Source: Microtetraspora fusca | GTDB lineage: Bacteria; Actinomycetota; Actinomycetes; Streptosporangiales; Streptosporangiaceae | Reading direction: 5' to 3' | Assembly (NCBI RefSeq): GCF_001570365.1 | Contig: NZ_BBYK01000065.1 | Coordinates: 1-64,000, forward strand | Length of the DNA stretch: 64,000 bases | Part shown: one piece after another, positions 6,816-50,412 of the stretch | Layout of the letters: every line of letters starts with the position of its first letter | Numbering within the stretch: position 1 is the first letter of the stretch | Notes under the pieces: generated by a model | Told to the model about the DNA's origin: nothing | Databases searched by the model: none | Seen by the model: only the letters and a program-made list of their open reading frames with translations | Translations under genes and position numbers: made by a program

Positions 6816-6852
6816 AGCGCGAAACCGGGGCGAAACGCGCGGCAGGTGGCGG

Positions 6853-6877: not shown

Positions 6878-6949
6878 CCGCGTCCACGTGTCCCAGCCCC
6901 TACCGGAAACAGGCGTGGCCGACGTCGGGTCCCGCGATCGCGTGACGCC

Positions 6950-9039: not shown

Positions 9040-9052
9040 GGCGCGACGACCC

Positions 9053-9077
9053 GTTTCACCCTGAATTGGGCGGGCAG
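9053..9077 (+). promoter_or_regulatory. SigB-like promoter of the BON/phosphoesterase genes
   Basis: GTTT (9053-9056), 15 nt, GGGCAG (9072-9077), with the ATG 31 nt further on after a GGAGGGGGAG ribosome site. Confidence 0.5.
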
Positions 9078-9108
9078 GCGCTGGAGAGTCTGATCGGAGG
9101 GGGAGCCC

Positions 9109-10073: not shown

Positions 10074-10148
10074 CGCCGTACCGCCGTCGGGGCCGGGCAC
10101 GGGACGGCGGCCGGACCCGCCGGCCGCCGTGATCCCACGCCCACCCGA

Positions 10149-10298
10149 TCATGGATGGAAGATGCTGACCCCGCCGGGGCCGATGAGGAAGCCGATGACG
10201 ATGAGGACGATCCCCCAGAGAATGTCCCGTCGGGCCAGGATCACGTAGATTCCGGAGATAACGAGTACAACGGCGATGAGCCAAAGCAAAGTAGCCAT
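10149..10298 (-). CDS. GPGG-motif small membrane protein
   Basis: 49 aa. My translation of the minus strand gives MATLLWLIAVVLVISGIYVI, then LARRDILWGIVLIVIGFLI, then GPGGVSIFHP and a stop. Two hydrophobic helices flank an ARRD turn, and the C-terminus has the GPGG motif that names a family of tiny actinobacterial membrane proteins of unknown function. The upstream sequence has only a weak AGTGAAG ribosome site. It is convergent with the phosphoesterase. Confidence 0.8.
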   Translation of the reverse strand: MATLLWLIAVVLVISGIYVILARRDILWGIVLIVIGFLIGPGGVSIFHP

Positions 10299-10373
10299 TG
10301 CACTTCACTGCCCGGCGAATTCTCTGGTTAACTCCCCGTTTAATTGAATTTCGCCGCCCCGGTCGCGCGCGGC

Positions 10374-10397
10374 GTTTGGTCCGCCCTGTTCGGGCAG
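10374..10397 (+). promoter_or_regulatory. SigB-like promoter of the LLM gene
   Basis: GTTT (10374-10377), 14 nt, GGGCAG (10392-10397), then 9 nt to the ATG at 10407. Confidence 0.5.
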
Positions 10398-10406
10398 GTG
10401 GCGGCT

Positions 10407-11378
10407 ATGACCAAATTCGGATATTTCCTCTCGTGCGAGGAGCATGACCCGAAAGAACTCCTGCGCCAGGCGCGACTCGCCGAGCAGCACGGATTCGAGG
10501 GGCTGTGGATCTCCGACCATTACCACCCCTGGGTGGACGCGCAGGGGCAGAGCGCGTTCGTCTGGGCGGTCATCGGCGCGCTGTCGGAGGCCACGTCGCT
10601 GCCGGTGACCACCGCGGTGACGTGCCCGATCATCCGCATCCATCCGTCGATCATCGCCCAGGCCGCCGCCACCGCCCAGGTGATGCTCGACGGCAGGTTC
10701 CGGCTGGGCCTCGGCACGGGCGAGGCGCTCAACGAGCACATCCACGGCGACCAGTGGCCGCCGGCGTCGGAGCGGCGGCGGATGCTGGAGGAGGCGATCG
10801 AGGTCATCCGCCGGCTGTGGACGGGGAAGCTGGTCAGTTTCCGGGGCGAGTTCTACGACGTGGACACCGCGCGCCTGTACACACTGCCGGAGAAGCCGCC
10901 GCCGATCTACATCTCCGGCTTCGGGCCGAAGTCCACCGAGCTCGCCGGGCGGATCGGTGACGGGTACATCTCCACCGCGCCCTCCTCCGACATGATCCAG
11001 GTGTTCCGCGCGGCCGGGGGCCAGGGCAAGCCCACCGCGGCCGGGTTCAAGGTGTGCTGGTCCGAGGACGCGGCCAGGGCACGGCACAACGTTCACCGGC
11101 TGTGGCCGACCAACGGCATCCCCGGCGAGGCGTCCCAGCTCCTGCCGCTGCCGCGCCACTTCGAGCAGCTCTCGCAGCTCGTCACCGAGGAGGCGGTGGC
11201 CGACAAGATCGCCTGTGGCCCGTCCGCCGACGACCACATCGCGGTGATCCGCCAGTACGTCGAGGCCGGGTACGACGAGATCTACATCCAGCAGGTCGGG
11301 CCTGAGCAGGACGGCTTCTTCTCCTTCTACGCGGAGGAGGTCCTGCCCCGCTGCCGAACCACCCAGGCGGTCCGGTGA
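10407..11378 (+). CDS. F420-dependent LLM-class oxidoreductase (FGD-like, TIGR03557 type)
   Basis: 323 aa. It is a TIM-barrel luciferase-like protein: FGYFLSCEEHDPKELLRQARLAEQHGFEGLWISDHYHPW, VTCPIIRIHPSIIAQAAATAQVML, FRLGLGTGEALNEHI, and IYISGFGPKSTELAGRIGDGYI. These match F420-dependent glucose-6-phosphate dehydrogenase relatives. The substrate is unknown, and true Fgd1 is only one member of this group. The ATG at 10407 is chosen over an upstream ATG at 10344 because homology starts there and the SigB-like -10 lies 9 nt before it. It is convergent with the DUF1360 gene. Confidence 0.87.
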   Translation: MTKFGYFLSCEEHDPKELLRQARLAEQHGFEGLWISDHYHPWVDAQGQSAFVWAVIGALSEATSLPVTTAVTCPIIRIHPSIIAQAAATAQVMLDGRFRLGLGTGEALNEHIHGDQWPPASERRRMLEEAIEVIRRLWTGKLVSFRGEFYDVDTARLYTLPEKPPPIYISGFGPKSTELAGRIGDGYISTAPSSDMIQVFRAAGGQGKPTAAGFKVCWSEDAARARHNVHRLWPTNGIPGEASQLLPLPRHFEQLSQLVTEEAVADKIACGPSADDHIAVIRQYVEAGYDEIYIQQVGPEQDGFFSFYAEEVLPRCRTTQAVR

Positions 11379-11409
11379 CGCGGTTCCTTGAGCCGGCGGG
11401 GGCGGGTGC

Positions 11410-11925
11410 TCACTCCGGCCCGTCCTCGCCCGCCTGCTTCATCATCCGGCTGTACGCGAGCTGGAGCCAGTCGGAGACCGCGACGGCCGTCATCGTCGCG
11501 CCCGCCAGCCGGGTCACCCGCGGCGCGAAGACCATGCCCGCGGCGTACCCGGTGGCGACCCACTGGGAGAGGCAGAACGGGCAGCTCACCAGCTCGCCGA
11601 GCGCGTGGCGCAGCCCGGAGCCGCGCACCTCCTCCCGCAGCTCGGGCGGGCCGGAAACTCCGACATACTTTGTAAAGGGGGCGCGGAGCGGGCTTACCAC
11701 GGGGTCCTTGGCCAGCGTGCGCGACAGCCGATGGGTGAACATCCCCATCAGGCCCAGGTCGAGCAGGCCGATCTTCTCGGGCGCGCGCCGTCCGGTCAGC
11801 CAGGCGACGGCGGCCACCGCGCCCACGACGCCGCTGTAGACCAGGAGGATCCGGCCGTACGACGCGAGCGGGCGGTCGGCCGAGCCTTCGTACGCCCGTG
11901 CGGCTTCCTTGAGGGTTTCGGTCAT
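11410..11925 (-). CDS. DUF1360 membrane protein
   Basis: 171 aa. The LGELVSCPFCLSQWVATGYAAGMVF segment, with its CPFC motif inside a helix, is the hallmark of the DUF1360 family (related to sporulation-controlled YjcL-type proteins of Bacillus). An N-terminal helix (ILLVYSGVVGAVAAVAWL) and a C-terminal helix complete about three membrane segments. Function is unknown. The promoter overlaps that of the divergent nucleotidyltransferase gene. Confidence 0.8.
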   Translation of the reverse strand: MTETLKEAARAYEGSADRPLASYGRILLVYSGVVGAVAAVAWLTGRRAPEKIGLLDLGLMGMFTHRLSRTLAKDPVVSPLRAPFTKYVGVSGPPELREEVRGSGLRHALGELVSCPFCLSQWVATGYAAGMVFAPRVTRLAGATMTAVAVSDWLQLAYSRMMKQAGEDGPE

Positions 11926-36930: not shown

Positions 36931-38448
36931 ATGGCGGACTTCGTCGGAGCGGTCGATCAGGGCACCACGAGCACCCGGTTCATGATCTTCGACAAGGGTG
37001 GGAACGAGATCGCCCGGCACCAGCTCGAACACCAGCAGATCCTTCCGCACGCCGGGTGGGTGGAGCACAACCCGACCGAGATCTGGGAGCGTACCCGGGC
37101 GGTCATCGAGACGGCGCTGCGCGGCGCGCGGCTGACCGCGTCCGACCTCGCGGCGCTCGGGGTCACCAACCAGCGGGAGACGACGCTGGTCTGGAACCGG
37201 CGGACGGGGCGGCCGTACTACAACGCGATCGTGTGGCAGGACACCCGGACCGACCGCATCGCCGCCGCGCTGGACCGCGACGGCAGGGGCGACGTGATCC
37301 GGCGCCGGGCCGGGCTGCCGCCGGCGACGTACTTCTCGGGCGCGAAGATCCAGTGGATCCTGGAGAACGTCGAGGGCGTGCGCGAGGACGCCCGGTCGGG
37401 TGAGGCGCTCTTCGGCACCACCGACACCTGGCTGCTGTGGAACCTCACCGGCGGGACCGACGGCGGCGCGCACGTGACCGACCCCACGAACGCCGGCCGC
37501 ACGATGCTGATGGACCTGGAGACGCTGGACTGGGACGAGGAACTGCTGTCGTTCTTCGGCGTGCCGCGCGAGATGCTGCCGCGCATCCTCCCGTCGTCCA
37601 ACCCCGACGCGTACGGCATGACCCGGCGCTGGGGGCCGCTCGCCGGGGAGGTGCCGCTGTCCGGCGACCTCGGCGACCAGCAGGCGGCGACCGTGGGCCA
37701 GGTCTGCTTCGAACCCGGCGAGGCGAAGAACACCTACGGCACGGGCAACTTCCTGCTGCTCAACACCGGCCGCGAGCCGGTGCGGTCGCGGCACGGCCTG
37801 CTCACCACGGTCGGCTACCGTTTCGGCGCCGAGCCGCCGGTGTACGCGCTGGAAGGGTCGATCGCGGTGACCGGCTCGGCGGTGCAGTGGCTGCGCGACC
37901 AGCTCGGCATCATCTCGGGGGCGGGGCAGAGCGAGGCGCTGGCCCGCCAGGTGACCGACAACGGGGGCGTCTACTTCGTGCCCGCCTTCTCCGGGCTCTT
38001 CGCGCCGTACTGGCGTTCGGACGCGCGCGGCGTGATCGTCGGCCTGTCCCGCTTCAACACGAACGCGCACATCGCGCGCGCCGCCCTGGAGGCGATCTGC
38101 TACCAGACGCGCGACATCGTCGAGGCGATGGAGCGCGACTCGGGGGTGGCCCTCGACGTGTTGCGCGTGGACGGGGGCGTGACCGCCAACAACCTGTGCA
38201 TGCAGCTCCAGGCGGACATCCTCGGCGTGCCGGTGTCCAAGCCGGTCGTGGCCGAGACCACCGCCCTCGGGGCCGCGTACGCCGCGGGGCTGGCCGTGGG
38301 CTTCTGGCGCTCGACCGAGGACCTGAGGAAGAACTGGCACGAGGCCCGCCGCTGGCTGCCGACCTGGACGGACGAGCAGCGCGCGGAGGGCTACGCCGGG
38401 TGGAAGAAGGCCGTTGAGCGGGCGCTCGGCTGGGTGGAGGTGGAGTGA
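36931..38448 (+). CDS. glpK: glycerol kinase
   Basis: 505 aa, full length. FGGY motifs: [73 protein letters not shown], and [22 protein letters not shown]. It makes sn-glycerol-3-phosphate from glycerol and ATP. The ATG at 36931 has an AGAGGGG ribosome site. It is downstream of glpF and convergent with the GntR gene, with a hairpin spanning its stop codon. Confidence 0.95.
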
Positions 38449-38464: not shown

Positions 38465-39208
38465 TCATCGGATGCCGACGTAGAACCGGGTCTGGTCGCT
38501 GCGGTGGAGCGCGTAGTACGCCTCGAACCGCGTGTTGTCGTCCAGCCAGGCGACCGACTCGATGCCGAGCAGCGGCGTCGAGGTGGAGACCTCCAGCAGC
38601 GCCGCGTCCTCGGGCTCGGGGAAGACCGCCTCGATCCAGCGGTCCGCGGCCGCCGGCTCGATGCCGTACCGCCGCCGCAGCACGTCGTACAGGGACTGGT
38701 TCTCCAGGACGGCGCGCTCCAGGCCGGGGACCAGGCGGGCGGGCAGCGCGGTGTCGACGAGCAGCCACGGCTGGCCGTCCACGCAGCGGAGCCGGCGCAG
38801 CCGGACGACCTCCTCGCCGCGCGGGATCCGGAGGAGGGCGGCCTCCCGCTCGTCCGCCTGGCCCAGCGACTGGTGGATGGTCTGCGTGGTCACCCGGCGT
38901 CCGGACTCCCGCAGGTCGTCGGCGGAGCCGGACGTCGATCCGACGAACCGCAGCTCCGTCTTGCGCGCCGCGACGAAGGCGCCGCGTCCTTTGATCTTGT
39001 AGATGAGGCGCTGCTGCACGAGCTCGCGCAGGGCCTCGCGCACGACGGTGCGGGACACGCTGAACATGTCGCTCAGCTCGGCCTCGGACGGCAGCGGCTG
39101 GTCCGGGCCCAGCTCGCCGCTCTCGATCTCCGCTCGTAAGGCCCGCATGAGCTGCATCCACAGCGGTTCCGCCCCGTCGCGGTTGAGGCGCGGATAGGTG
39201 ATCGTCAC
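38465..39208 (-). CDS. GntR/HutC-family regulator (UTRA domain)
   Basis: 247 aa. The winged HTH is LWMQLMRALRAEIESGELGPDQPLPSEAELSDMFSVSRTVVREALRELVQQRLIYKIKGRGAFV. The UTRA ligand domain follows, with EEVVRLRRLRCVDGQPWLLVDTALP and AWLDDNTRFEAYYALHRSDQTRFYV. The GTG at 39208 has AAGGAGGGG at ideal distance. It is divergent from the polyol operon, and TGTC/GACA palindromes lie in the shared region, so it should repress the operon and itself until a sugar phosphate binds. Confidence 0.9.
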   Translation of the reverse strand: MTITYPRLNRDGAEPLWMQLMRALRAEIESGELGPDQPLPSEAELSDMFSVSRTVVREALRELVQQRLIYKIKGRGAFVAARKTELRFVGSTSGSADDLRESGRRVTTQTIHQSLGQADEREAALLRIPRGEEVVRLRRLRCVDGQPWLLVDTALPARLVPGLERAVLENQSLYDVLRRRYGIEPAAADRWIEAVFPEPEDAALLEVSTSTPLLGIESVAWLDDNTRFEAYYALHRSDQTRFYVGIR

Positions 39209-39257
39209 GGGTCCCCTCCTTGGCGGCAGCTTCTGGAAGCATGCCATGCCCGGCCAG

Positions 39258-39289
39258 CCTGTCGTGACAGGTTGTCTATCCTGTCGTGA
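39258..39289. promoter_or_regulatory. autoregulatory operator candidate for the GntR gene
   Basis: The palindrome CCTGTC-GT-GACAGG (39258-39271) and a further half-site CCTGTCGTGA (39280-39289), sharing the TGTC/ACAGG core with the operon operator at 39368. Confidence 0.55.
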
Positions 39290-39335
39290 AGATTATCCTC
39301 CATCGTCCAGCTCGTGTGGCTCAGGAAACTCTCTC

Positions 39336-39364
39336 TTGACAGCACCGTAACGTCGGCTTAGTTT
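39336..39364 (+). promoter_or_regulatory. promoter of the polyol/AI-2-like operon
   Basis: TTGACA (39336-39341), 17 nt, TAGTTT (39359-39364), the best sigma70-type -35 in the window. The operator begins 4 nt after the -10. Confidence 0.6.
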
Positions 39365-39367
39365 GCT

Positions 39368-39391
39368 TGTCACTACAGGCCTGTAATGACA
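39368..39391. promoter_or_regulatory. 24-bp operator palindrome at the operon start site
   Basis: TGTCACTACAGG followed by CCTGTAATGACA, 11 of 12 positions symmetric. It covers the expected transcription start, the ideal place for GntR repression. Confidence 0.7.
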
Positions 39392-39472
39392 TCCCGCTCC
39401 CTTGCGAGTGATGCGTTCCCGCGGCTTTCGACTTCCTCCCGCTACGGCGGACCTGCTCTCTCTGGAGACACG

Positions 39473-40588
39473 ATGCGTATCCGTACCTCTCGCCGGCCCT
39501 GGCGCGCGGCCTCCGCGGCGACCATCGCCGCCCTCGCGGTTCTGGCCACGGGCTGTGGCTCCGGCGACAACGCCGCCGGCGACAAGGCGAGCTCCGGCGG
39601 CGGCAGCGGCGACAAGCCGTTCATCGCGCTGAGCAACGGCTTCATCGGCAACGGCTGGCGGCAGACGATGATCGCCAAGTTCGAGGCGGCGGCCACGCAG
39701 GCGCAGAAGGACGGCCTGATCAGCAAGTACAAGGTCGTCAACGCCCCGGGTGAGAACTCGGCCACCGAGCAGGTCGCGCAGATCAAGAGCCTTCTCCTGC
39801 AGAAGCCGGACGCGCTGCTGATCGACCCGTCCTCGCCGACCGCGCTCAAGCCGGTCATCCAGCAGGCCTGCGACGCCGGCGTCAAGGTCGTGGTGTTCGA
39901 CTCCGCGATCGACGCCCCGTGCGCGCACGTGCTGCAGAACAGCTTCGTCGACTGGGCCACCTACGCCGCCAAGCCGCTGCTCGAGGGCATCGGCGGCAAG
40001 GGCAACGTCATCGTGAGCCGCGGCGTCGTCGGCTCCCAGCCCGAGGCCGAGATGTTCGACACCACCAAGAAGATCCTCGGCGGCTACCCCGACGTGAAGA
40101 CCGCCGCGACGGTGACCGGCATGTGCGACGGCGCCACCGCGCAGAAGGCCGTGCTCGGCGTGCTGTCCAGCGTGCCCAAGGTGGACGGCGTCATCGGCTG
40201 CGGCGACGGCTACGGCGTCGCCCAGGCGTTCGCCACCGCCGGCAAGCCGGTTCCCGCCGTGACGTTCGAGACCAACGGCCGCGCCCTGAACTACTGGAAG
40301 GACAACAAGATCGACAACGGTTCGGTCGCGGTCATGTCCGACCCGGGCCAGTCCGTCGCCGCCCTGTGGGAGGCACTCGACCTGCTCGACGGCAAGGACG
40401 TGCCGAAGCAGCTGACCTTCCCGATCGTCCTCGTGGAGCAGAAGGACCGCGACGCCTGGGCCGCCGCGCTCAAGCCCGACGAGTACGCCGCGTGGCCGTG
40501 GACCCGCGACCTCTTCCGCCAGCAGGTCGAGGCCGTGAAGACCGGCGGCGAGCCGGTGCAGCCGCCGATCCCGACGGCCGCGGGCTGA
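39473..40588 (+). CDS. sugar ABC transporter substrate-binding lipoprotein
   Basis: 371 aa. It has a signal peptide with lipobox VLATGC (Cys near residue 26), a Gly/Ser linker, then a periplasmic-binding-protein type 1 (RbsB/LsrB-like) fold: FIALSNGFIGNGWRQTMIAKFEAAA, ALLIDPSSPTALKPVIQQACDAGVKVVVFDS, and GVIGCGDGYGVAQAF. It captures a sugar or polyol outside the membrane. It is first in a seven-gene operon, and its start is about 100 nt after the promoter. Confidence 0.9.
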   Translation: MRIRTSRRPWRAASAATIAALAVLATGCGSGDNAAGDKASSGGGSGDKPFIALSNGFIGNGWRQTMIAKFEAAATQAQKDGLISKYKVVNAPGENSATEQVAQIKSLLLQKPDALLIDPSSPTALKPVIQQACDAGVKVVVFDSAIDAPCAHVLQNSFVDWATYAAKPLLEGIGGKGNVIVSRGVVGSQPEAEMFDTTKKILGGYPDVKTAATVTGMCDGATAQKAVLGVLSSVPKVDGVIGCGDGYGVAQAFATAGKPVPAVTFETNGRALNYWKDNKIDNGSVAVMSDPGQSVAALWEALDLLDGKDVPKQLTFPIVLVEQKDRDAWAAALKPDEYAAWPWTRDLFRQQVEAVKTGGEPVQPPIPTAAG

Positions 40589-40610
40589 CCTGGAGCAAGC
40601 ACAGGAGGGC

Positions 40611-42119
40611 ATGCACGTGGACAACCGGGGACCGCGGGCCGGCGAGCCCGTCGTCGTCGCCAAGGGCGTGACCAAGACGTACGGGCGCACCCGGGCGCTC
40701 GCCGGCGTGGACCTTGAGGTCCGCGCGGGCGAGGTGCTCGGGCTCGTCGGCCACAACGGCGCCGGCAAGAGCACGCTGATGCGCGTGCTCGCCGGGCTGG
40801 AGGCCTGCGACGAGGGCGCGGTCCTGGTGCACGGGAAGGAGGTCTCCGGCGCGGCCGGACCACGCGCGGAGGACTTCCGCGCGGTGCGGATGGCCTACCA
40901 GGAGACCTCGCTCTGCCCCGATCTCACGGTGGCGGAGAACATCTGGGTGTCGTCGCGGCACTGCCTCCCGCGCCTGGGCTGGCGGCGCGCCGCGAGCGAC
41001 GCCGTACGCCGCCGCCTCGACGAGATGTTCCCGGGCCACGGCGTGACGCCGCGCGACCGGGTCGAGGACCTGTCGCTGGCCCAGCGCCAGATGGTCGAGA
41101 TCACCCGGGCCAGCCTCGTGGACCGGCTCGACCTGCTCATCCTGGACGAGCCGACCGAGTCGCTCGGCCCCGACGCGGCGCGCTCGCTGTACGACTACGT
41201 CCGCACGCTGACCGCGGCGGGCACCGCGGTGCTGCTCATCTCGCACCGCATCCGGGAGGTCCTCTCGGTGGCCGACCGCGTCGCCGTGCTGCGCGACGGC
41301 GCGGTCACCGCCGAGCGGTTCGCCGAGGGGCTGGGCGAGCAGGACGTGCTGACCCTGATGGGCGCGCATGTCGCGGTCCCCTCGGAGCAGGACCGCGCCG
41401 CCGCCCGTGCCGCGGGGGACGCCGCCGACCGGCCGGTCGTGGCCGAGCTGCGCGGCGCCACCGGACCCGGCCTGCGCGAGGTCTCCCTGCGGGTCGGCGC
41501 CGGCGAGGTCGTGGGCCTCGCCGGGCTGGCCGGGCAGGGCCAGCAGGAGGTGCTCGAACGCCTGTGGCACCCCGTCCGGCGCGACACCACGGTGGTCGGC
41601 ACCCGCGCGTACGTGCCCGGCGACCGGCAGCGCTCCGGCGTGCTGCCCCTGTGGAGCGTCGCCGAGAACCTCATCGTCACCGCCATGCGCGGCCTCGCAC
41701 GCCAGGGCCTGCGCCGCCCGGCCGAGGAGCGCGCGGCGGTCGGCGACTGGGTCGAGCGGCTGGCGATCCGCGGCGGCGCGGACGCCGGTATCACCGAGCT
41801 GAGCGGCGGCAACCAGCAGAAGGTCATCGTCGCCCGGGCGTTCGCCTCCACGGCGGAGCTGGTGCTGCTCGACGACCCCTTCCGCGGCGTGGACGTGCAC
41901 ACCAAGACCGACCTGTACGCCCTGATCCGGCAGGAGGCGGCGCAGGGCCGGAGCGTCGTCTGGTACTCCAGCGAGAACGCGGAGATGGCCCACTGCGACC
42001 GGGTCTACGTGTTCCGCGCCGGCCGCGTGGTCGCCGAGCTGGTCGGCGAAGAGATCTCCGAGGAACGGATCATCGCCGTCTCCTTCGCGGAGTCGGATGG
42101 AGAGCAGAGCAATGAGTGA
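40611..42119 (+). CDS. sugar ABC transporter ATPase (two-domain, RbsA/LsrA-like)
   Basis: 502 aa. The first nucleotide-binding domain is complete: Walker A GHNGAGKST, signature-like LSLAQRQMVEITRA, Walker B LLILDEPTESLG. The second has a degenerate P-loop (GLAGLAGQGQQEV) but a good signature LSGGNQQKVIVARAF and VLLDDPFRGVD, as normal for this family. An AGGAGG site lies just before the ATG. A GTG two codons later is an equal alternative. It overlaps the next gene by 8 nt. Confidence 0.92.
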   Translation: MHVDNRGPRAGEPVVVAKGVTKTYGRTRALAGVDLEVRAGEVLGLVGHNGAGKSTLMRVLAGLEACDEGAVLVHGKEVSGAAGPRAEDFRAVRMAYQETSLCPDLTVAENIWVSSRHCLPRLGWRRAASDAVRRRLDEMFPGHGVTPRDRVEDLSLAQRQMVEITRASLVDRLDLLILDEPTESLGPDAARSLYDYVRTLTAAGTAVLLISHRIREVLSVADRVAVLRDGAVTAERFAEGLGEQDVLTLMGAHVAVPSEQDRAAARAAGDAADRPVVAELRGATGPGLREVSLRVGAGEVVGLAGLAGQGQQEVLERLWHPVRRDTTVVGTRAYVPGDRQRSGVLPLWSVAENLIVTAMRGLARQGLRRPAEERAAVGDWVERLAIRGGADAGITELSGGNQQKVIVARAFASTAELVLLDDPFRGVDVHTKTDLYALIRQEAAQGRSVVWYSSENAEMAHCDRVYVFRAGRVVAELVGEEISEERIIAVSFAESDGEQSNE

Positions 42120-43071
42120 GCTCCTCGCGTCGGCCCTGCCGTCCCGGGCCAGGATGCGCCGCACGGCGCCGGCCGTGGTCAGCGCCGTCGCCCTCGCCGT
42201 GATGATCACGGTCTGCGCCTCGCTGCAGTCGGACGTGCTGAGCGTGGGCGGCCTGACGCTCGTGCTGTCGGCGACCGTGCCGCTCGTCATCGCCGCCCAG
42301 GCCCAGATGGCCCTCATGTCGGTCGGCGACATCGACCTCGGGATCGGCAACTTCGTCGGCCTGGTCACGGTCGTCTCGGCCACCACGCTGGTGACGTCGC
42401 CGCTGCTCGGGGCCCTGACCCTGATCGGTCTCGTCGCCGCGTACGCGGTGCTGGGCGCGCTCATCCACCTGCGCCGTGTGCCGTCGCTGATCGCGACCCT
42501 CGGCGCCTCGTTCGTCTGGCTGGGGCTCGGCCTGTTCATCCTGCCGACGCCCGGTGGCTCGACCCCCGAGTGGCTGGCGTCGCTCGGCTCGTGGCAGCCC
42601 GCCGGGTTCCCCGCGCCGCTGCTGCCGATCCTGGTCGTCGCCCTGGTGGTGTACCTGCTCACCTCGCGCAGCGCCCTCGGGGTGCGGATGCGCGGCCTCG
42701 GCAGCAACCCCGTGGCGTTGCAGCGGGCCGGGCTGCGGCCGCTCACCTCCCGCGTCATCGCGTACACGGTGGCGGGCGCGCTCGGCGTGCTCTCCGGCCT
42801 CATGCTGGCCTCGCAGACCGGAGGCGGCGACGTGTCGTCGGCCTCCAGCTACACGCTCATGACCGTGGCCGCGGTGATCCTCGGCGGCGGCTCCTTCTTC
42901 GGCGGGAGCGCCGTGCCGTGGGGCGTGGCCATCGGCGGTGTGACGCTCGGGCTGGTCAGCGTCGTCCTCAGCCTGCTCGACGTGCAGTCGAACATGCAGT
43001 CCGCCGTGCAAGGCGTGATCGTCCTGGCCGTGCTCGCCGGCCGCGTCGTGGTCGGGAAGGTGCTGCGATGA
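42112..43071 (+). CDS. sugar ABC transporter permease 1
   Basis: 319 aa. About nine to ten helices with the family signature MALMSVGDIDLGIGNFVGLVTV (compare GGIDLSVG) and AAVILGGGSFFGGSAVPWGVAIGG, as in RbsC and LsrC/D. Start ATG 42112 overlaps the ATPase stop. The stop overlaps the next start (ATGA). Confidence 0.88.
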   Translation: MSELLASALPSRARMRRTAPAVVSAVALAVMITVCASLQSDVLSVGGLTLVLSATVPLVIAAQAQMALMSVGDIDLGIGNFVGLVTVVSATTLVTSPLLGALTLIGLVAAYAVLGALIHLRRVPSLIATLGASFVWLGLGLFILPTPGGSTPEWLASLGSWQPAGFPAPLLPILVVALVVYLLTSRSALGVRMRGLGSNPVALQRAGLRPLTSRVIAYTVAGALGVLSGLMLASQTGGGDVSSASSYTLMTVAAVILGGGSFFGGSAVPWGVAIGGVTLGLVSVVLSLLDVQSNMQSAVQGVIVLAVLAGRVVVGKVLR

Positions 43072-44081
43072 ACATCCGCACGATCGTCTCGCGCCCGTGG
43101 ATCTGGGGCTTCGCCGCGGCGGTGCTCGTCTGGGCGATCATCATGGCCATCTCGGGCCAGGGCGGCGGCCAGACGGTGTCGCTCGCGCTGTCCCTGGCGC
43201 CCTACCTCGTCGTCGTGGGACTCGGCCAGATGCTCGTCATCACGGCCGGCCCCGGCAACATCGACGTGTCGGTGGCGCCGATCATCTCGCTCGCCGGGTT
43301 CGTCTCGGTCGGGGTGGCCGGCTCGACCGGGTCGGCGACCGTCGGCATCCTCGCGGGCATCGGCGTCGGCGTCCTCGTCGCGGTCATCAGCACCGTGGCC
43401 ATCCTCGGACTGTCCGTGCCGCCGATCATCGCCACGCTGGCCGCCGGGCTCGTCGCCTCGTCGGTCACGCTGTCCCTGGCGAACGGCTTCACCGCGGTGC
43501 CCGACCCCGGCCTGCGGCAGCTCCTCAACGTGCGCCCGGCGGGCATCCCCATCCTCGCCGTGGCCGTCGCGGCCCTGACCGGGCTGGTCATCCTGCTGCT
43601 GCGCCGTACGGTCTACGGCCGCTCCCTGATCGCGGTCGGGCAGAACCGCAGGGCCGCGGAGCGGGCCGGCATCCCGGTCGCCCGCGTCATCGCGACCACG
43701 TACCTGGTGAGCGGCGCGCTCGCCGGGCTGACGGGCGCCCTGCTCGCGGCCTACATCGCGCCCTCCGCCGACCTCGGCACGCGCTACCTGCTCGACTCCG
43801 TCGCCGTCGTCGTCATCGGCGGCACGCTCATCTCCGGCGGCCGGGCCGTGCCGGTGGGCGTGTGGGGAGCGGGTCTCTTCTTCATCCTGCTCGACGGCCT
43901 GGTCAACCTCGTGGGCTGGAGCACGGCCGCGCAGAACCTGCTGAAGGGCGGCCTGGTGCTCTTCGTCCTCTTCCTTGCCGGCGGGGGTGACCGTGCCGGG
44001 GGCACGGCCTCCCGATTCAGAAGACGGCCGCGAACGGCGGCCGCGACCACCACAACAACAGGAGACAACACTCATGGCTGA
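43068..44081 (+). CDS. sugar ABC transporter permease 2
   Basis: 337 aa. A second RbsC/LsrD-type permease: [56 protein letters not shown], and [25 protein letters not shown]. The polar C-terminal tail ([22 protein letters not shown]) is encoded by the DNA that carries the ribosome site of the next gene, which it overlaps by 8 nt. Two different permeases instead of a homodimer is an Lsr-like feature. Confidence 0.88.
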
Positions 44082-44964
44082 CACCGACGGCCTGATCGAC
44101 GCCCGCGACTTCGGGACGTCCGCGGCCCCGGCGGGCGGCTTCCACGTGAAGGGCGCGCACGCGCAGGACTGGGGGCTGCAGAACCGGCTGTCCCGCATCT
44201 TCCGGCCGGACACCGGGCGGACGGTCATGCTCGCGTTCGACCACGGCTACTTCGTCGGGCCGATGGCGGGCCTGGAGCGTCTCGACACCAACATCGCGCC
44301 GCTCGTGCCCGACGCCGACGCGATCATGATGACGCGGGGCGCGCTGCGCACCAGCATCCCCTCCACCACCAGCGCCGGCATCGTGCTGCGCGCCAGCGGC
44401 GGCCCGAGCATCCTGCGCGAGCTGTCCGACGAGCACATCGCGCTCGACATCGAGGACGCGGTCCGCCTCAACGCGGACGCCCTGGCCATCCAGGTGTTCG
44501 TCGGCGGCGAGCACGAGTCGCGCTCGGTCGCCAACCTGGCCAAGCTCGTGGACGCCGGCCAGCGGCACGGCGTCGCCGTCCTCGGCGTCACCGCCGTCGG
44601 CAAGGACATGGTCCGTGACGCCCGCTACTTCCGGCTGGCGACCCGGATCAGCGCCGAGATGGGCGCGCACATCGTCAAGACGTACTACGTCTCGGAGGGC
44701 TTCGAGACCGTCACCGCGAGCTGCCCGGTGCCGATCATCGTGGCCGGGGGCAAGAAGCTGCCCGAGCTGGACGCGCTGACCATGGCGTACCGCTCCATCC
44801 AGGAGGGCGCCGCCGGCGTGGACATGGGCCGCAACATCTTCCAGAGCGAGCACCCCGCGGCGATGCTCGCCGCCGTGCGCGCGGTCGTTCACGACGGTCT
44901 GAAGCCGGAGGAGGCCCTCGAGCTCTTCAAGGAGCGCTCGGCCGCCGGCACCGCAGCGTCCTGA
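44074..44964 (+). CDS. LsrF-like thiolase/class I aldolase
   Basis: 296 aa, nearly the length of E. coli LsrF, with strong resemblance throughout: [44 protein letters not shown]-type [25 protein letters not shown], Schiff-base Lys202 in [20 protein letters not shown], and [17 protein letters not shown]. LsrF transfers acetyl from 3-hydroxy-5-phosphonooxypentane-2,4-dione to CoA in AI-2 breakdown. Homologues in the DhnA/FbaB family are sugar-phosphate aldolases. No LsrG, LsrR or luxS is here, and the neighbours point to a polyol-derived ketose phosphate, so the true substrate is open. GGAGA ribosome site. Confidence 0.87.
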
Positions 44965-44972
44965 CCCTTCCA

Positions 44973-45024
44973 GGGCGCGGGTCCCCGGGCGGCATCGGCA
45001 GTGCCGCGGCGGGGACCCGCGCCC
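44973..45024 (+). terminator. intercistronic hairpin between the LsrF-like and GlpD-like genes
   Basis: A perfect 14-bp stem GGGCGCGGGTCCCC/GGGGACCCGCGCCC with a 24-nt loop, ending 21 nt before the next start. There is no U-run. It is likely an attenuator or RNA-processing signal that sets the ratio of upstream to downstream genes. Confidence 0.7.
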
Positions 45025-45045
45025 GCCATTCCCGGGAGCAACCCC

Positions 45046-46701
45046 ATGCCGCACCACCACGCCGGACGTGACGACGTCGTCGACCTCGCCGTCATCGGAG
45101 CCGGTATCAACGGGCTCGCCGTAGCCCGAGACGCCGCCGCCCGCGGGTTGCGCGTCGTCGTCGTCGACCGCGCCGACGTGGGCGCGGGAACGTCGAGCAC
45201 GTCGAGCAGGCTGATCCACGGCGGCCTGAAGTACCTCGAACGCTACGACTTCACGCTCGTGCACGAGTCCATCCGCGAGCGGCACCTGCTGTTCCGCACC
45301 GCGCCGCACCTCGTCCGGGACTACCCGATGCTCATCCCCTTCTACGAGGGGGACAGCAGGCCCGGCCCCCTGATCAGGCTCGGCCTGGCGGCGTTCGACG
45401 TCATGGCCATGAACCGCGGGCGCGGCGTCAGCCGCGGCGTCTCCGTGCGCAAGGTCGCCCGCCGCTGGCCCACGCTGTCCCGCAAGGGGCTGCGCGGCGC
45501 GGCCCTGTTCCACGACGCGCAGGTGCCGTGGGCCGAGCGGCTCTGCGTCGAGCTGCTTCTCGACGCCCAGCGGCTCGGGGCGCGTGTGCTCACCTACACC
45601 ACCGTCACCGGGCTGATCGTCGAGGGCGACCAGGTTCGCGGCCTGCGGATCGAGGACAACGCCACCGGCGAGCGGAGCGAGATCCGGGCCGCCCTCACCG
45701 TCAACGCGGCCGGGCCGTGGATCGACCGCATCCTCGACGGCCAGGTGAAGAGCCGCCGCCTCAACGGCGGCACCAAGGGCAGCCACGTCATCGTGGACCC
45801 GTTCCCCGGTGCCCCCGACACCTGCATCTTCTTCGAGGCCGCCGCCGACCAGCGGCCGATCTTCGTCTTCCCCTGGCAGGGCCGGTACGTCCTGGGCAGC
45901 ACCGACCTCACCTACGAGGGCGACCTGGACGAGGTCGTCGCCAGCGACGCCGAGATCGATTACCTGCTCGCCGAGACGAACCGGATCTTCCCCGACGCCC
46001 GGCTCACGCCGTCCGACGTGCTGTACAGCATCGCCGGGGTGCGGCCGCTGCCGTACACCGAGGGTGTGTCGGACAACGCCAAGATCAGCCGGGGGCACAC
46101 GGTGCTCAACCACGCCCCCGCGTACGAGGGGCTGCTCACCGTCATCGGCGGCAAGCTGACCACCCACCGCGCGCTCGCCGAGGACGTCACCGACGAGGTG
46201 CTGCGCGTGCTCGGCCGCCGCCCGCGGCGGTGCATCACCCGGGAGCGGCCGTTCCCCGGCGCGGAGACCTCCGACTGGAAGGCGTTCGCCCAGGACTTCA
46301 TCCGCTCCTCGCCGCTCTCCGGCCGGCAGTCGCGCCGCCTGCTCACCCTCTACGGCGTGCGCGCCCGCCGGGTGCTCGAACTCGCCGCCGAGGACCCGTC
46401 GCTGGCGGAGGTCGTGGACGCCGAGACCGGCGCGCTGGCCGCCGAGGTCGTCATGGCCGTCCGCGAGGAGGGGGCCGTGACGCTGAGTGACATCCTGCTG
46501 CGGCGTATCCTTGTCGGGCTCGGCGCGGACATGGGCCTGTCGGCCGCCCCCGCCTGCGCCGACGTCGCCGTACGGCATCTCGGGTGGGACGAGGCGCGGG
46601 CGCGCGCCGAGGTCGCCGACTACGAGGCGGAGCTGCGCCGCTTCCGCCCCCGAGTCCTGGCCACCTCGACATCCAGCGGCAGCGACAGGAGGACCCCGTG
46701 A
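45046..46701 (+). CDS. FAD-dependent polyol-phosphate dehydrogenase (GlpD/EryB-like)
   Basis: 551 aa. GlpD family motifs: DLAVIGAGINGLAVARDAAARGLRVVVVDRADVGAGTSSTSSRLIHGGLKYLERYDF, GTKGSHVIVDPF, IFVFPWQGRYVLGSTDLTYEGD and the C-terminal DAO_C domain. GlpD oxidises glycerol-3-phosphate. EryB, a close relative, oxidises erythritol-4-phosphate. Being coupled (GTGA) to an FGGY kinase and placed in a regulated sugar operon suggests a polyol phosphate other than glycerol-3-phosphate, or a dedicated second GlpD. It is membrane-associated and donates electrons to quinones. GGGAGC site before the ATG at 45046. Confidence 0.88.
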   Translation: MPHHHAGRDDVVDLAVIGAGINGLAVARDAAARGLRVVVVDRADVGAGTSSTSSRLIHGGLKYLERYDFTLVHESIRERHLLFRTAPHLVRDYPMLIPFYEGDSRPGPLIRLGLAAFDVMAMNRGRGVSRGVSVRKVARRWPTLSRKGLRGAALFHDAQVPWAERLCVELLLDAQRLGARVLTYTTVTGLIVEGDQVRGLRIEDNATGERSEIRAALTVNAAGPWIDRILDGQVKSRRLNGGTKGSHVIVDPFPGAPDTCIFFEAAADQRPIFVFPWQGRYVLGSTDLTYEGDLDEVVASDAEIDYLLAETNRIFPDARLTPSDVLYSIAGVRPLPYTEGVSDNAKISRGHTVLNHAPAYEGLLTVIGGKLTTHRALAEDVTDEVLRVLGRRPRRCITRERPFPGAETSDWKAFAQDFIRSSPLSGRQSRRLLTLYGVRARRVLELAAEDPSLAEVVDAETGALAAEVVMAVREEGAVTLSDILLRRILVGLGADMGLSAAPACADVAVRHLGWDEARARAEVADYEAELRRFRPRVLATSTSSGSDRRTP

Positions 46702-48218
46702 CCGACCCGACCCCCTGCTACATCGGCGTGGACGTCGGCCTCACCGCGTCGAAGGCCGCCGCCTTCGACGCCGAGGGCAACGAGATCGGCGTGGTCCACG
46801 CCCGCACGCCGCGCACCGCGGTGACCGCGCACCGGCACGACGTGGACATGGTCGCGCTCGCCGACACCGTCATGTCGCTGCTCGCCGAGCTGGCCGGCAA
46901 GCTGGCCGCCGACGGGTACGTCGCGGCCGGCATCGGCGTGGCCGCGCACGGCAACGGGCTGTACCCGGTGGACGCGTCCCTGCGTCCGGTCGCCCCGGCC
47001 ATCGCCTCCTCGGACAGCCGGGCCCAGCACGTCGTGGACGAGATCGCCGAGGATGACGCGCTCCGCCTGGCGCGCGAGACCGGATCCATCCCGTGGGCGG
47101 CCCAGCCCAGCGTGCTGCTGCGCTGGCTGCGCGACGCCGACCCCGAGGCGTACGCCGCCACCCGCTGGGCGCTGTCCTGCAAGGACTGGGTGACCTGCCA
47201 GCTCACCGGCGTGCCGAGCGCCGACTACAGCGACGCGAGCGCGTTCGGCATGGTGGCCCTGGACACCCGCGAGTACAGCGCGACCGCGCTCGAACTGGTC
47301 GGGCTGCCCGCGAGCGACCTGGAGCGGTTCCCGCCGCTGCGCGAGTCCGGCGAGATCGTCGCCGGGCTGAGCGCGCGGGCGGCCGAACTCACCGGCCTGC
47401 CTGAGGGACTGCCGGTCATCGCGGGCTGCATGGACTGCGTGGCGGCGACCCTGGGCGCCGGAGGCCGCGCCCTCGGCGACGTGACGATCATCGTCGGCAC
47501 GTGGGCCATCAACGGCGTGGTCGTCCCCGCGGGCACCCCGGCGCCCGAGGTCACGCTCAGCGCGCTGATGCCCGACTCCGCCACCATGCTCGCCATGGAG
47601 GTCGCGCCGACCTCGGCCGCCAACCTGGAGTGGCTCGCGTCCGCGTCGGTTCCGCACGGCCGGGTCGGCGGCGTGCCGGCGGCCGAGCTGCTGGGCGAGG
47701 CGGCCACGGTGGAGCCGGGCGCGGAGGGCCTGCTGTTCCTTCCCTTCGTGAACGGCGCACCCGAGCACCCCGCCGCGTCCGGGACGTTCCTCGGCATCTC
47801 GGGCGTCCACCGGCGCGGGCATCTCACCCGCGCGGTGATCGAAGGGGTCGCGCAGTACCACCGGGTGCAGCTCGACCGGGTCCTGGCCAGCGGCGCCGAC
47901 GTCGGCGACCGCCCGTGGCGGCTCGCCGGAGGCGGCGCCAGGTCCGAGGTGTGGGCGCAGATCTTCGCCGACGTCCTCGGCCGTCCGGTGCGTCGCCAGC
48001 TCACCAGCGAGCTGGGCGCGCGCGGCGTCGCGTCGCTGCTGCCCGCCGCGCTCGGCCACGACGTCGCGCCGTGGTCGGTCAGCGACGAGGACGACCTGTG
48101 CGTGCGTCCCGGCCCGGCCCGGCCGGCGTACGTCCGGCACGGCGAGGTGTTCGACCGGGTCCTCGCCGGCATGTGGGGGCCGTGGTCGGAGGTCGAGCGG
48201 TACCGCACCGACTCCTGA
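46698..48218 (+). CDS. FGGY-family carbohydrate kinase (EryA/LyxK/LsrK-like)
   Basis: 506 aa. IGVDVGLTASKAAAFDAEGNEI at the N-terminus, GIGVAAHGNGLYPVDASLRPVAPAIASSDSRA, LSCKDWVTCQLTG, VIAGCMDCVAATLGAGG and the adenosine motif RLAGGGARSEVWAQIFADVLGRPV. It lacks the NQRE and DQGTT features of glycerol kinase, so it acts on another polyol or sugar, erythritol-type being my best guess. The GTG at 46698 has an AGGAGGA site and overlaps the dehydrogenase stop. It is last in the operon, followed by a strong terminator. Confidence 0.87.
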   Translation: MTDPTPCYIGVDVGLTASKAAAFDAEGNEIGVVHARTPRTAVTAHRHDVDMVALADTVMSLLAELAGKLAADGYVAAGIGVAAHGNGLYPVDASLRPVAPAIASSDSRAQHVVDEIAEDDALRLARETGSIPWAAQPSVLLRWLRDADPEAYAATRWALSCKDWVTCQLTGVPSADYSDASAFGMVALDTREYSATALELVGLPASDLERFPPLRESGEIVAGLSARAAELTGLPEGLPVIAGCMDCVAATLGAGGRALGDVTIIVGTWAINGVVVPAGTPAPEVTLSALMPDSATMLAMEVAPTSAANLEWLASASVPHGRVGGVPAAELLGEAATVEPGAEGLLFLPFVNGAPEHPAASGTFLGISGVHRRGHLTRAVIEGVAQYHRVQLDRVLASGADVGDRPWRLAGGGARSEVWAQIFADVLGRPVRRQLTSELGARGVASLLPAALGHDVAPWSVSDEDDLCVRPGPARPAYVRHGEVFDRVLAGMWGPWSEVERYRTDS

Positions 48219-48232
48219 CCCGCCCGCCGTTC

Positions 48233-48271
48233 GAACCGGTCCGCCGTACTGGGTCACAGGCGGACCGGTTC
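48233..48271 (+). terminator. terminator of the polyol operon
   Basis: A perfect 13-bp stem GAACCGGTCCGCC/GGCGGACCGGTTC with a 13-nt loop, 15 nt after the kinase stop. Confidence 0.88.
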
Positions 48272-48350: not shown

Positions 48351-48830
48351 TCAGCGGGCGGTGTGGTACCGGCGGTGCAGCTCGCGCACCCGTTCGGTCA
48401 GCTCGAGGACCGGACCCTCCACCGCGACGCCGGGGGCGACCTCCTGGATCGGGAGCGCCCGCACCGGAGCCGCCGGGACGCCCAGCTCGGTCAGCCAGGA
48501 GACGAGCTGCTCGGACGAGGCCGCGTACACGATGCGGCCCAGGCCGACCCACGCGTGCGCGGCCGCGCACATCGGGCAGTGCTCCCCGGAGGTATAGACG
48601 GTCGCCGCCGCCCGTTCCTCGGGCGCCATGTTCCCCGCGGCCCAGCGCGCCAGCTCGAACTCGGGGTGGCGGGTCCGGTCGCCGCCCGCGATCCGGTTGC
48701 GGTCCTCGGCGAGAACGGCGCCGTCCGCCGAGACAAGCACGGAGCCGAACGGCTCGTCGCCGTCCTCCAGTGCCTCGACCGCCAGCTCCACACAGCGTTC
48801 CAGATGCCGCAGATCCGTTTCGGTCACCAT
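48351..48830 (-). CDS. cytidine/guanine deaminase-family nucleoside deaminase
   Basis: 159 aa. Zinc-dependent deaminase motifs: HPEFELARWA (His ligand and catalytic Glu) and the second site HCPMCAAAHAW (PMCAAA, compare PCxxC). LEDGDEPFGSVLVSADGAVLAEDRNRI is the substrate-side strand. Members deaminate guanine, cytosine or tRNA adenosine, and the size and divergence fit a small-molecule deaminase. The ATG at 48830 has GGGGAGG upstream. It is divergent from the ABC importer. Confidence 0.85.
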   Translation of the reverse strand: MVTETDLRHLERCVELAVEALEDGDEPFGSVLVSADGAVLAEDRNRIAGGDRTRHPEFELARWAAGNMAPEERAAATVYTSGEHCPMCAAAHAWVGLGRIVYAASSEQLVSWLTELGVPAAPVRALPIQEVAPGVAVEGPVLELTERVRELHRRYHTAR

Positions 48831-49068
48831 GGACGCCTCCCCGCAGTGCGATATCTCCGGCAATGCTAGATCATGTCCTGTTACGTGCGTGAAGATGCTC
48901 TTTCTGGGCACTTCGGCCGCACGTCCGCGCACGCGTCTTCGCGAACCGCGAGGTCCTCGTGCGCAAAGTGCAAGGATCGGCCGCTGTTTGTCCATGGAGC
49001 GGACCCTGCCCCCGGAGTGAAGGTTGCGGCGGACCGGATCACCTTGGGCTAGGGAGGACGAAGGCGTC

Positions 49069-50412
49069 ATGGGCGTCACACAGCAGGCGAGGCCGGCCGT
49101 AGGGCTGGCCGGTGCGATGACCGCGATCCTCATGGCCGCCGCGTGCGGGAGCGGCGGGGCGGGCGAGCCCGCGGCCCCGGCCGCGTCCGCGGCGTCGGCC
49201 GCCGCCGGCGGGCCGGTGACCGTCGAGTGGTGGGGCTGGGCGCCCGGCTACGACAAGGCCGCCGAGGCGTGGAACGCCTCTCACCCGGACATCCAGGTGA
49301 AGTACGCCCAGATCGAGCCGGGCGCCAAGGGCGGCTACCAGAAGATGCTCGGCGCGGTGAAGGCGGGCAACGCTCCGTGCCTCGCCCAGGTCGGAGGCGA
49401 GACCCTGGCCAGTTTCCTCGTCGAGGGTGCGCTGGAGGACATCACCGCGTACGCAAAGGAGTCGAACGCCAAGTTCCAGCAGTGGGCGGTCAACTCGGTC
49501 ACCTTCGGCGGACGGCAGGTCGCCGTCCCGGTTGACTCCGGGCCGATGGGAATGTTCTACCGCAAGGACATCCTCGCCAAGCACAAGATCGACGTGCCGA
49601 AGACCTGGGACGAGTTCGCCGCCGCCGCCGCGAAGCTGCACGCCGCCGACCCCAAGGCCTTCCTCACGTCGTTCAACCCGGACGACATGTACGGCTTCAG
49701 CGGCTACGCCTGGCAGGCCGGGGCGAGCTGGTTCTCCACCGCCGGCGACGCGTGGAAGGTGAGCATCACCGACGAGCCCACGCTCAAGGTCGCGAACTAC
49801 TGGCAGGGGCTGCTCGACAAGAAGCTCGTCGACGTCAAGCCCGCCTGGTCGGACGCCTGGTTCAAGGATTTCACCGACGGCAGGATCGCCTCGCTGGTCG
49901 GCGCGGTGTGGATGACCAAGGTGCTCGAGGACTCGATCCCGAAGACCTCGGGCAAGTGGGCGGTCGCCCCGATGCCCTCCTGGGAGCCCGGCACGACGGC
50001 TACCGGCAACGTCGGCGGCTCACCCAACGCCGTGCTGAAGGGATGTGCGCACCCCAAGGAGGCCGTGGAGTTCGCCACCTGGCTGTCCACCGACCAGACC
50101 GCGTTCGACGACCTGATGGTCAACGGCGGCCTGTTCCCGACCTCCGCCGACGGCACCTCGCTGCCCGCGATGAAGTCGCCGCGGCCGTTCTACGGCGACC
50201 AGCCGGTCTTCGAGGTGTTCTCCGAGGCGGCCAAGACGGTCGCGCCGACCTTCGCCTGGGGCCCGACGACCCCCGCCGTGAACGACGCCTTCAACTCCGC
50301 CGTGGGCGAGGCGGTGAGCAAGGGCGGCACGCTGGCCGACGCGCTCAAGACCGTTCAGGAGAAGGCCGTGGCCTCCATCAGGGACAAGGGCCTGAGCGTC
50401 ACCGAAGGCTAG
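49069..50412 (+). CDS. ABC transporter extracellular sugar-binding lipoprotein (MalE-type)
   Basis: 447 aa. Lipobox MAAACG (Cys about residue 26) after a short signal peptide, then family-1 solute-binding features: VTVEWWGWAPGYDKAAEAWNASHPDIQVKY, VPVDSGPMGMFYRKDILAKH, and KEAVEFATWLSTDQTAF. CUT1 systems bind oligosaccharides. Neighbouring permeases and GH35 beta-galactosidase suggest a galactoside ligand. GGGAGG ribosome site. A hairpin separates it from the permeases. Confidence 0.9.
   Translation: MGVTQQARPAVGLAGAMTAILMAAACGSGGAGEPAAPAASAASAAAGGPVTVEWWGWAPGYDKAAEAWNASHPDIQVKYAQIEPGAKGGYQKMLGAVKAGNAPCLAQVGGETLASFLVEGALEDITAYAKESNAKFQQWAVNSVTFGGRQVAVPVDSGPMGMFYRKDILAKHKIDVPKTWDEFAAAAAKLHAADPKAFLTSFNPDDMYGFSGYAWQAGASWFSTAGDAWKVSITDEPTLKVANYWQGLLDKKLVDVKPAWSDAWFKDFTDGRIASLVGAVWMTKVLEDSIPKTSGKWAVAPMPSWEPGTTATGNVGGSPNAVLKGCAHPKEAVEFATWLSTDQTAFDDLMVNGGLFPTSADGTSLPAMKSPRPFYGDQPVFEVFSEAAKTVAPTFAWGPTTPAVNDAFNSAVGEAVSKGGTLADALKTVQEKAVASIRDKGLSVTEG

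Follow-up and report, generated by a model that had tools for sequence, protein, structure and literature searches.

An actinobacterial operon combining LsrF, GlpD-like dehydrogenase and FGGY kinase genes as a candidate pathway for 1-deoxy-2-pentulose catabolism

The Lsr operon for autoinducer-2 (AI-2) comprises an RbsABC-type importer with two permeases (LsrACDB), the FGGY kinase LsrK, LsrG and LsrF, and its regulator LsrR is of the SorC type. Operons of the erythritol/threitol type combine the kinase EryA and the GlpD-like dehydrogenase EryB with isomerases of the EryC/EryH/EryI type. Here we describe an operon with features of both in a 64 000-nucleotide stretch of Microtetraspora fusca (contig NZ_BBYK01000065.1, positions 1 to 64 000; this whole stretch is termed the window), in which an LsrF homologue is encoded together with a GlpD-like FAD dehydrogenase and an FGGY kinase. 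The described reaction of LsrF is the transfer of the acetyl group of isomerized phospho-AI-2 (P-AI-2) onto CoA, which releases dihydroxyacetone phosphate (DHAP) and acetyl-CoA (PMC8016206). In 5-deoxyribose salvage by DrdK, DrdI and DrdA, also called the DHAP shunt, acetaldehyde is formed via a class II aldolase (PMC6079011, PMC10986504).

The cassette occupies positions 39473-48218 of the plus strand in the order sbp-abcA-perm1-perm2-lsrF-glpD-like-FGGY kinase, with genes that overlap or stand close, and together with a divergent regulator gene it makes up an eight-gene block at 38465-48218 (Table 1; gene starts were picked by eye). All seven genes named in an earlier sequence-only reading are present on this strand, Pfam and NCBIfam profile searches agree with the families assigned to them, and the description as a hybrid operon is supported. 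The cassette resembles the Lsr operon in its LsrF site positions, its FGGY kinase and its RbsABC-type importer with two permeases, as well as in its predicted end products, acetyl-CoA and DHAP. It differs in having an FAD dehydrogenase, a GntR/UTRA regulator, a kinase that is not LsrK and a solute-binding protein (SBP) that is not LsrB; no LsrG was found among the operon proteins of the window by profile search, and the LsrFs of the cassettes lie across a supported branch from that of E. coli. With the erythritol/threitol type it shares an FGGY kinase, a GlpD-like dehydrogenase and a sugar-type ABC importer, and its closest relatives within the same genome belong to a polyol-like locus (L172), but LsrF stands in place of the isomerases, none of the EryC/EryH/EryI type being found among the operon proteins of the window, the part of the genome searched for them. 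As in 5-deoxyribose salvage, a deoxypentose phosphate would be converted to DHAP and a C2 unit, although the cassette would use a dehydrogenase and a CoA-dependent thiolase and so yield acetyl-CoA directly.

We propose, as a tentative reading to which we give a little less than an even chance, that the operon serves to break down a 1-deoxy-2-pentulose. We infer the substrates and reactions in this organism throughout, and report gene content, conservation, family membership and catalytic residues as observed. The evidence that we count in favor consists of the derivation of this compound class from the LsrF reaction, the possible completeness of the eight-gene set, the LsrF site residues, the occurrence of the three enzymes together throughout, the parallel splits of the GlpD and kinase trees, the dehydrogenase genes near LsrF homologues outside the cassette, and XylB as the best model for the kinase.

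Among 297 Streptosporangiaceae genomes, including that of M. fusca, 20 have an orthologue of the SBP at 83% identity or more; SBP matches of any kind occur in 269 genomes, most of them distant and the best of these at no more than 36% identity. All eight genes are found together at each of the 19 other orthologue loci, the window being the twentieth, while at a comparison locus with a distant SBP (L167, 34%) the importer is encoded and lsrF, glpD and the kinase gave no match. At the order level, LsrF scores above the cut-off in 23 of 345 genomes, namely the 20 cassettes plus three genomes (G405, G448, G529) in which it adjoins an LsrK-type kinase, and in a class sample in seven of 394, namely six cassettes and one genome (G011) with a kinase above the LsrK cut-off. 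In a second actinobacterial family (that of G213), 15 of 299 genomes have LsrF above the cut-off and 11 carry the full eight-gene cassette. The loci L262, L263 and L265 of this family have a different FGGY kinase, which falls in the LsrK clade only in L263, and L252 has an aldolase/short-chain dehydrogenase (SDR) gene beside lsrF with no glpD or kinase match on its 7.6-kb contig. A neighborhood survey, which the sequence-only reading had named as a refuting test, thus finds the kinase, GlpD-like and LsrF genes together in all of a total of 31 cassettes. Because the eight genes occur together in 31 genomes of two families, their grouping is not due to chance. Five further records (L038, L039, L040, L042, L043) are genomes already counted and were not added to the 31. 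Clustering of the genes flanking the Streptosporangiaceae cassettes, limited to open reading frames (ORFs) of at least 110 codons with a GC content at third codon positions (GC3) above 0.78 and without annotating clusters one by one, gave no further gene common to most cassettes, and synteny was seen within close relatives. A cassette copy is also found on a 9.6 kb contig of Micromonospora sp. ATA32 (L041), with an LsrF 89% identical to that of the window and glpD spread over three ORFs; the contig is short and more than one reading frame is needed to cover glpD, for which reason this copy was left out of the 31. It could represent a recent transfer, a contaminant contig or a sequencing error.

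The LsrF homologue scores 471.9 bits against an equivalog cut-off of 297 (NF006081) and has 59.6% identity to its E. coli counterpart across 285 amino acids. Its predicted Schiff-base residue Lys202, recognized in the sequence-only reading, aligns with Lys203 of E. coli LsrF. Ten site positions (Asp57, His58, Lys203, Tyr205, Gly226-227, Asp251, Met252, Gly253 and Arg254 in E. coli numbering), which are those discussed by Diaz et al. (PMC2728841), are kept in the window and in all 31 cassettes. They are likewise invariant in 74 of 74 relatives outside the cassette and, save for one sequence gapped at six of them, in eight sequences, that of E. coli among them, whose loci have LsrK or a different FGGY kinase. 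Since the 74 relatives retain them too, these positions are markers of the LsrF family that alone do not separate AI-2 enzymes from others. In the LsrF tree, a branch with support of 99/98 separates the LsrFs of E. coli and G011 from 22 cassette rows, of which L169 is the one row from the second family. Long branches connect five very distant rows to the cassette side, and the bootstrap values had not stabilized; the tree is therefore compatible with a cassette clade without proving one.

The GlpD-like enzyme falls below both GlpD cut-offs (332.9 versus 360 bits for NF008899 and 310.9 versus 352 bits for NF009906). At the position of E. coli GlpD Arg54, which we take to contact the substrate phosphate, it has Lys62, within a motif HGGLKY that is found in the window, in all 30 other cassettes and in the paralogue at L172; the remaining GlpD homologues of the genome, three in number (L171, L173, L174), have HGGLRY and four solved GlpD/GPO chains have HGG[LI]RY. 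The best model for the kinase is XylB, at 193.9 bits far under the cut-off of 380, and E. coli XylB phosphorylates 1-deoxy-D-xylulose. Against GlpK (TIGR01311) the kinase reaches just 82.7 of 590 bits and against LsrK 107 of 528, and its tree position lies outside the LsrK clade. By these profile and tree results the kinase is neither GlpK, as the sequence-only reading had held, nor LsrK. In the trees of the GlpD-like and FGGY proteins (FastTree with midpoint rooting; 26 of the 31 cassettes, five near-duplicate loci being omitted), the cassette proteins form clades with support of 1.0 and 0.99, respectively, and each tree has the second family as a subclade. Nearest to the cassette proteins are the L172 paralogues, with LsrK and GlpK placed elsewhere. 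This looks like co-inheritance of one pathway.

Run backwards, the LsrF reaction, a GlpD-type step (R-CHOH-CH2OP to R-CO-CH2OP) and an FGGY kinase step lead to CH3-CO-CHOH-CHOH-CH2OH with no further enzyme required. In their own substrates, GlpD and EryB oxidize an L-configured carbinol beside CH2-O-phosphate, and for this reason we predict an L configuration at C4, matching that of AI-2. The substrate would be a 1-deoxy-2-pentulose, most likely 1-deoxy-L-xylulose or 1-deoxy-L-ribulose, which has the carbon skeleton of AI-2 one step reduced. It would be taken up by the binding protein and the RbsABC-type importer and phosphorylated at C5 by the XylB-like kinase. The GlpD-like flavoprotein would then oxidize the C4 carbinol beside CH2-O-phosphate to a ketone, giving 3-hydroxy-5-phosphonooxypentane-2,4-dione, and LsrF would transfer the acetyl group of this compound to CoA with acetyl-CoA and DHAP as products. 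An L configuration at C4 would keep the intermediate apart from the 1-deoxy-D-xylulose 5-phosphate of isoprenoid synthesis. In the available portions of open-licence papers, we found neither an operon of LsrF, GlpD and FGGY genes nor 1-deoxypentulose catabolism through LsrF.

The sequence-only reading had instead predicted import of a polyol or deoxypolyol and, after phosphorylation and oxidation, an LsrF-like cleavage to acetyl-CoA plus DHAP or a similar product. If LsrF carries out its known reaction, one kinase and one dehydrogenase leave this scheme one oxidation short for a plain polyol, because the LsrF substrate has ketones at both C2 and C4; the imported compound should already bear one carbonyl unless a second dehydrogenase takes part. 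Erythritol, threitol, methylerythritol and pentitols, all listed as candidates, would give no acetyl-CoA by this route. A polyol does need exactly one kinase and one oxidation if the LsrF homologue acts as a plain DHAP aldolase, with the kinase forming a polyol 1-phosphate, the GlpD-like enzyme a ketose 1-phosphate, and cleavage giving DHAP and an aldehyde without CoA. This is the main rival explanation. It follows the same logic as L172 (positions 1705-11715 of its own record in the same genome), a paralogous polyol-type cassette with a GlpD-like enzyme, an FGGY kinase, a GntR regulator and an RbsABC-type importer, which also encodes a fusion of triosephosphate isomerase (TIM) with a LacD-type class I aldolase (PF01791) and, in addition, a sugar-isomerase-like TIM barrel. 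We nevertheless consider plain aldol cleavage rather unlikely, as the LsrF signature Asp and the other checked LsrF positions are kept in all 31 cassettes, and the flank clustering above gave no aldehyde-handling gene as a fixed neighbor in Streptosporangiaceae. Fructose bisphosphate (FBP) aldolases are among the structural neighbors of LsrF (PMC2728841), which speaks for the rival.

A variant operon for the uptake and processing of AI-2, with one redox step assigned to the flavoprotein, would account for the LsrF homologue, the FGGY kinase and the RbsABC/Lsr-type importer. We regard it as very improbable. In addition to the kinase score and placement given above, the SBP reaches only 28.6 bits against an LsrB cut-off of 384, the regulator is of the GntR/UTRA and not of the SorC type, P-AI-2 is already oxidized so that a GlpD-type step would be superfluous, and separate LsrF loci with LsrK exist in the same order (L224-L226). 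An ABM-domain gene, of the LsrG superfamily, does adjoin three of the 11 second-family cassettes. The earlier proposal that the dehydrogenase replaces LsrG holds only in a formal sense, given the kinase outside the LsrK clade, the supported branch between the cassette and E. coli LsrFs, and these three ABM-domain genes.

The SBP has itself a close counterpart of solved structure. That of the G423 cassette (L166) matches PDB 4pe6 over 339 residues with no visible mismatch except the first residue, and the Foldseek title of this entry reads SBP from Thermobispora bispora DSM 43833, with no ligand named. For a structural model of the window SBP (pLDDT 82.9), 4pe6 is also the best match; next come sugar-type binding proteins, including ribose-binding ones, with identities of about 16-25%, and these matches do not fix the ligand. 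In the available literature text, 4PE6 appears only in a docking-set table under cathepsin S, without a ligand. The proposed pathway assigns to an orphan but strictly conserved actinobacterial operon a specific substrate class, open to assay with the three enzymes in purified form and with a binding protein that has already been crystallized (4PE6).

Second-family cassettes carry additional genes. An aldolase/SDR match lies directly downstream of the kinase in all 11 (L260 ends at a contig edge, and the gene of L259 is in two frames), and the three that were profiled are class II aldolases fused to a short-chain dehydrogenase, scoring 792-836 bits against a cut-off of 831 (NF006196), which one of them passes. 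The ABM-domain gene follows the aldolase/SDR gene in L254 (3903-4265), L256 (998-1453) and L259 (15389-15844); the L254 protein, the one profiled, matches the LsrG model weakly (27.4 bits, cut-off 135). In this family the fusion protein could form the C2 ketone from a 1-deoxypentitol, which requires a second oxidation that the SDR would provide. We searched for NF006196 in 15 genomes, 12 of them Streptosporangiaceae cassette genomes, and in these 12 found no match in G161 and G423 (E-value of at most 1e-40) and, in the other ten, only lower-scoring matches outside the cassette (317-387 bits against the cut-off of 831). Because matches in these 12 genomes are absent or low-scoring and outside the cassette, the eight genes may suffice on their own in Streptosporangiaceae. 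Class II aldolase/SDR fusions akin to the rhamnulose-1-phosphate type, which accompany LsrF in the second family and elsewhere, could also indicate another substrate, such as a branched or C6 deoxy-ketose that undergoes the same three reaction types with LsrF splitting a homologous beta-diketone. We judge this improbable, since the checked LsrF positions are those of the C5 enzyme and a profile search of the window operon proteins gave no isomerase or mutarotase family.

The operon hints at a role of LsrF wider than AI-2 degradation. At least 585 relatives match the LsrF model in one scan, and we assessed 74 loci outside the cassette from among the 80 best LsrF relatives of the matches listed. 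A dehydrogenase gene lies within 3 kb on the same strand in 58 of these 74 (48 with an SDR or aldolase/SDR fusion and 10 with a zinc-type alcohol dehydrogenase (ADH)), in loci that carry labels of at least 13 phyla, and RPE is present in 22. The idea that LsrF outside the cassette is a stand-alone gene is not supported, given these nearby dehydrogenases. A distance control, which counts either strand and only flanking sides with sufficient sequence, found SDR-family genes on 56 of 125 sides at 0-3 kb, one of 100 at 3-6 kb and two of 86 at 6-9.5 kb; in the same bins the counts were 19, 0 and 0 for RPE and 10, 1 and 1 for zinc ADH. Related loci, including 14 from Chlorobi, are each counted singly. 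An alignment of neighboring proteins (A1) contains unrelated proteins and serves for scanning only, with 75 of 94 ORFs, 12 Chlorobi loci omitted and at most one ORF per side. Among four of these genomes checked, three (two of them Chlorobi) have a class II FBP-aldolase-family gene and the fourth has none; because three of the four have their own family member, a role of these LsrFs as FBP aldolases is not forced.

In a wider reading, which we consider possible but on the whole doubtful, LsrF is not primarily an AI-2 enzyme and would act more generally as the thiolase that ends the oxidation of deoxypentose phosphates. Modules of LsrF with a GlpD-like, SDR, class-II-aldolase/SDR or zinc ADH dehydrogenase, often with RPE, would constitute a widespread oxidative and CoA-dependent route from deoxypentose phosphates to acetyl-CoA and DHAP, of which AI-2 degradation is one branch and in which the Chlorobi module includes a RuBisCO-like protein. 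As part of this reading, the oxidation of 1-deoxypentulose 5-phosphates and that of 5-deoxypentulose 1-phosphates would converge on 3-hydroxy-5-phosphonooxypentane-2,4-dione. If so, many genes matching the LsrF model would belong to a general deoxypentose-phosphate pathway and not to AI-2 signaling, with a bearing on the fate of 5'-deoxyadenosine, 1-deoxyxylulose and AI-2.

Several points weigh against the proposed 1-deoxypentulose pathway. The only pointer to the L configuration is the stereochemistry of GlpD and EryB. At L172, the GlpD and FGGY relatives that come nearest among those compared stand with the TIM-LacD fusion, an arrangement in keeping with simple aldol cleavage of a ketose phosphate. 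Outside the cassette, the dehydrogenase queries were taken from LsrF neighbors, which favors near matches, and 16 of the 74 loci have no dehydrogenase within 3 kb (four of them with RPE only), some being cut by contig ends.

A mutual exclusion of LsrG and dehydrogenases could not be established: no LsrG was recognized in the actinobacterial LsrK-type loci in an inspection by eye, with no profile search made, and at L224, which belongs to these loci, an SDR gene lies downstream of lsrF at a distance of about 1 kb. In Chlorobi (L088:7803-13161; also L051-L053, L060, L064, L081, L084, L086, L095, L101, L104 and L110) the neighborhood consists of a class II aldolase/SDR fusion, the LsrF homologue, a RuBisCO-like protein and a second SDR. 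The RuBisCO-like protein is found in 13 of the 14 Chlorobi loci, its family having been profile-checked in L088, and the fourteenth locus ends just past lsrF. Photo RLP of Rhodopseudomonas palustris, a homologue of the Chlorobaculum protein, has no part in 5'-methylthioadenosine metabolism (PMC5893883), and the Chlorobi cluster may offer a clue to what RuBisCO-like proteins of this type do. At L114 (10869-14236), LsrF lies with RPE, an aldolase/SDR fusion and a gene of the D-lyxose isomerase family, which points to a putative sugar-catabolic role.

Table 1. Features of the cassette and its regulatory regions in the window
Feature	Position	Strand	Evidence
gntR, GntR/HutC-type (UTRA) regulator	38465-39247	-	PF07702 129 bits, PF00392 66 bits; in 31/31 cassettes
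Promoter-like TTGACA-17 nt-TAGTTT	39336-39364	+	Read by eye, just upstream of conserved palindrome
Operator-like 24-base palindrome TGTCACTACAGGCCTGTAATGACA, 11/12 pairs	39368-39391	.	Conservation among cassettes
sbp, lipoprotein-like solute-binding protein, Peripla_BP_4	39473-40588	+	PF13407 179 bits; PDB 4pe6 653 bits
abcA, double-domain AraG/LsrA/RbsA-type ATPase, ABC_tran	40611-42119	+	Pfam and NCBIfam profiles
perm1, permease, BPD_transp_2	42112-43071	+	Pfam and NCBIfam profiles
perm2, permease, BPD_transp_2	43068-44081	+	Pfam and NCBIfam profiles
lsrF, class I aldolase/thiolase of LsrF family, DeoC, predicted Schiff base Lys202, Asp250	44074-44964	+	NF006081 471.9 bits
Intercistronic hairpin lsrF/glpD, very stable, GC-rich	44973-45024	+	-55.6 kcal/mol, z -4.0
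glpD-like FAD dehydrogenase, Lys62	45046-46701	+	DAO and DAO_C (PF01266, PF16901)
FGGY kinase, XylB-like, by profiles neither GlpK nor LsrK	46698-48218	+	FGGY_N and FGGY_C; GTG start overlaps glpD stop

In the window the cassette lies between a separate glpK gene (36931-38448, plus strand; 730 bits against the TIGR01311 cut-off of 590) and a deaminase-like gene (48351-49133, minus strand), as it does in its nearest relatives (L148-L151), and neither gene was seen in the fetched stretches of the remaining cassettes. With glpK near the cassette in only five of 31, its adjacency lends little to the entry of triose phosphate that had been read from glpFK.

The candidate regulatory sites qualify the earlier claim that the seven genes are expressed from one promoter: a sigma-70 scan gave no promoter above threshold and did not pick up the promoter-like site, and the hairpin lies between lsrF and glpD, so that expression may not be uniform. 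The palindrome is probably a GntR operator, judged by its conservation. Its best match is 21-24 of 24 bases in 17 of the 19 other Streptosporangiaceae cassettes, those with a gap readable by script (L149 and L156 yielded no region). In the 11 cassettes of the second family the best matches cover 13-20 of 24 bases, and those at the lower end may have arisen by chance. The z-score of the hairpin was computed on the window, and an analogous hairpin of changed sequence was seen by eye shortly after the lsrF stop in 29 of the 31 cassettes (window, L148-L166, L169, L253-L260); L261 and L264 lack it, and there glpD starts no more than 10 bases past the lsrF stop. The hairpin may make transcript levels differ between the portion with the importer genes and lsrF and that with glpD and the kinase gene.

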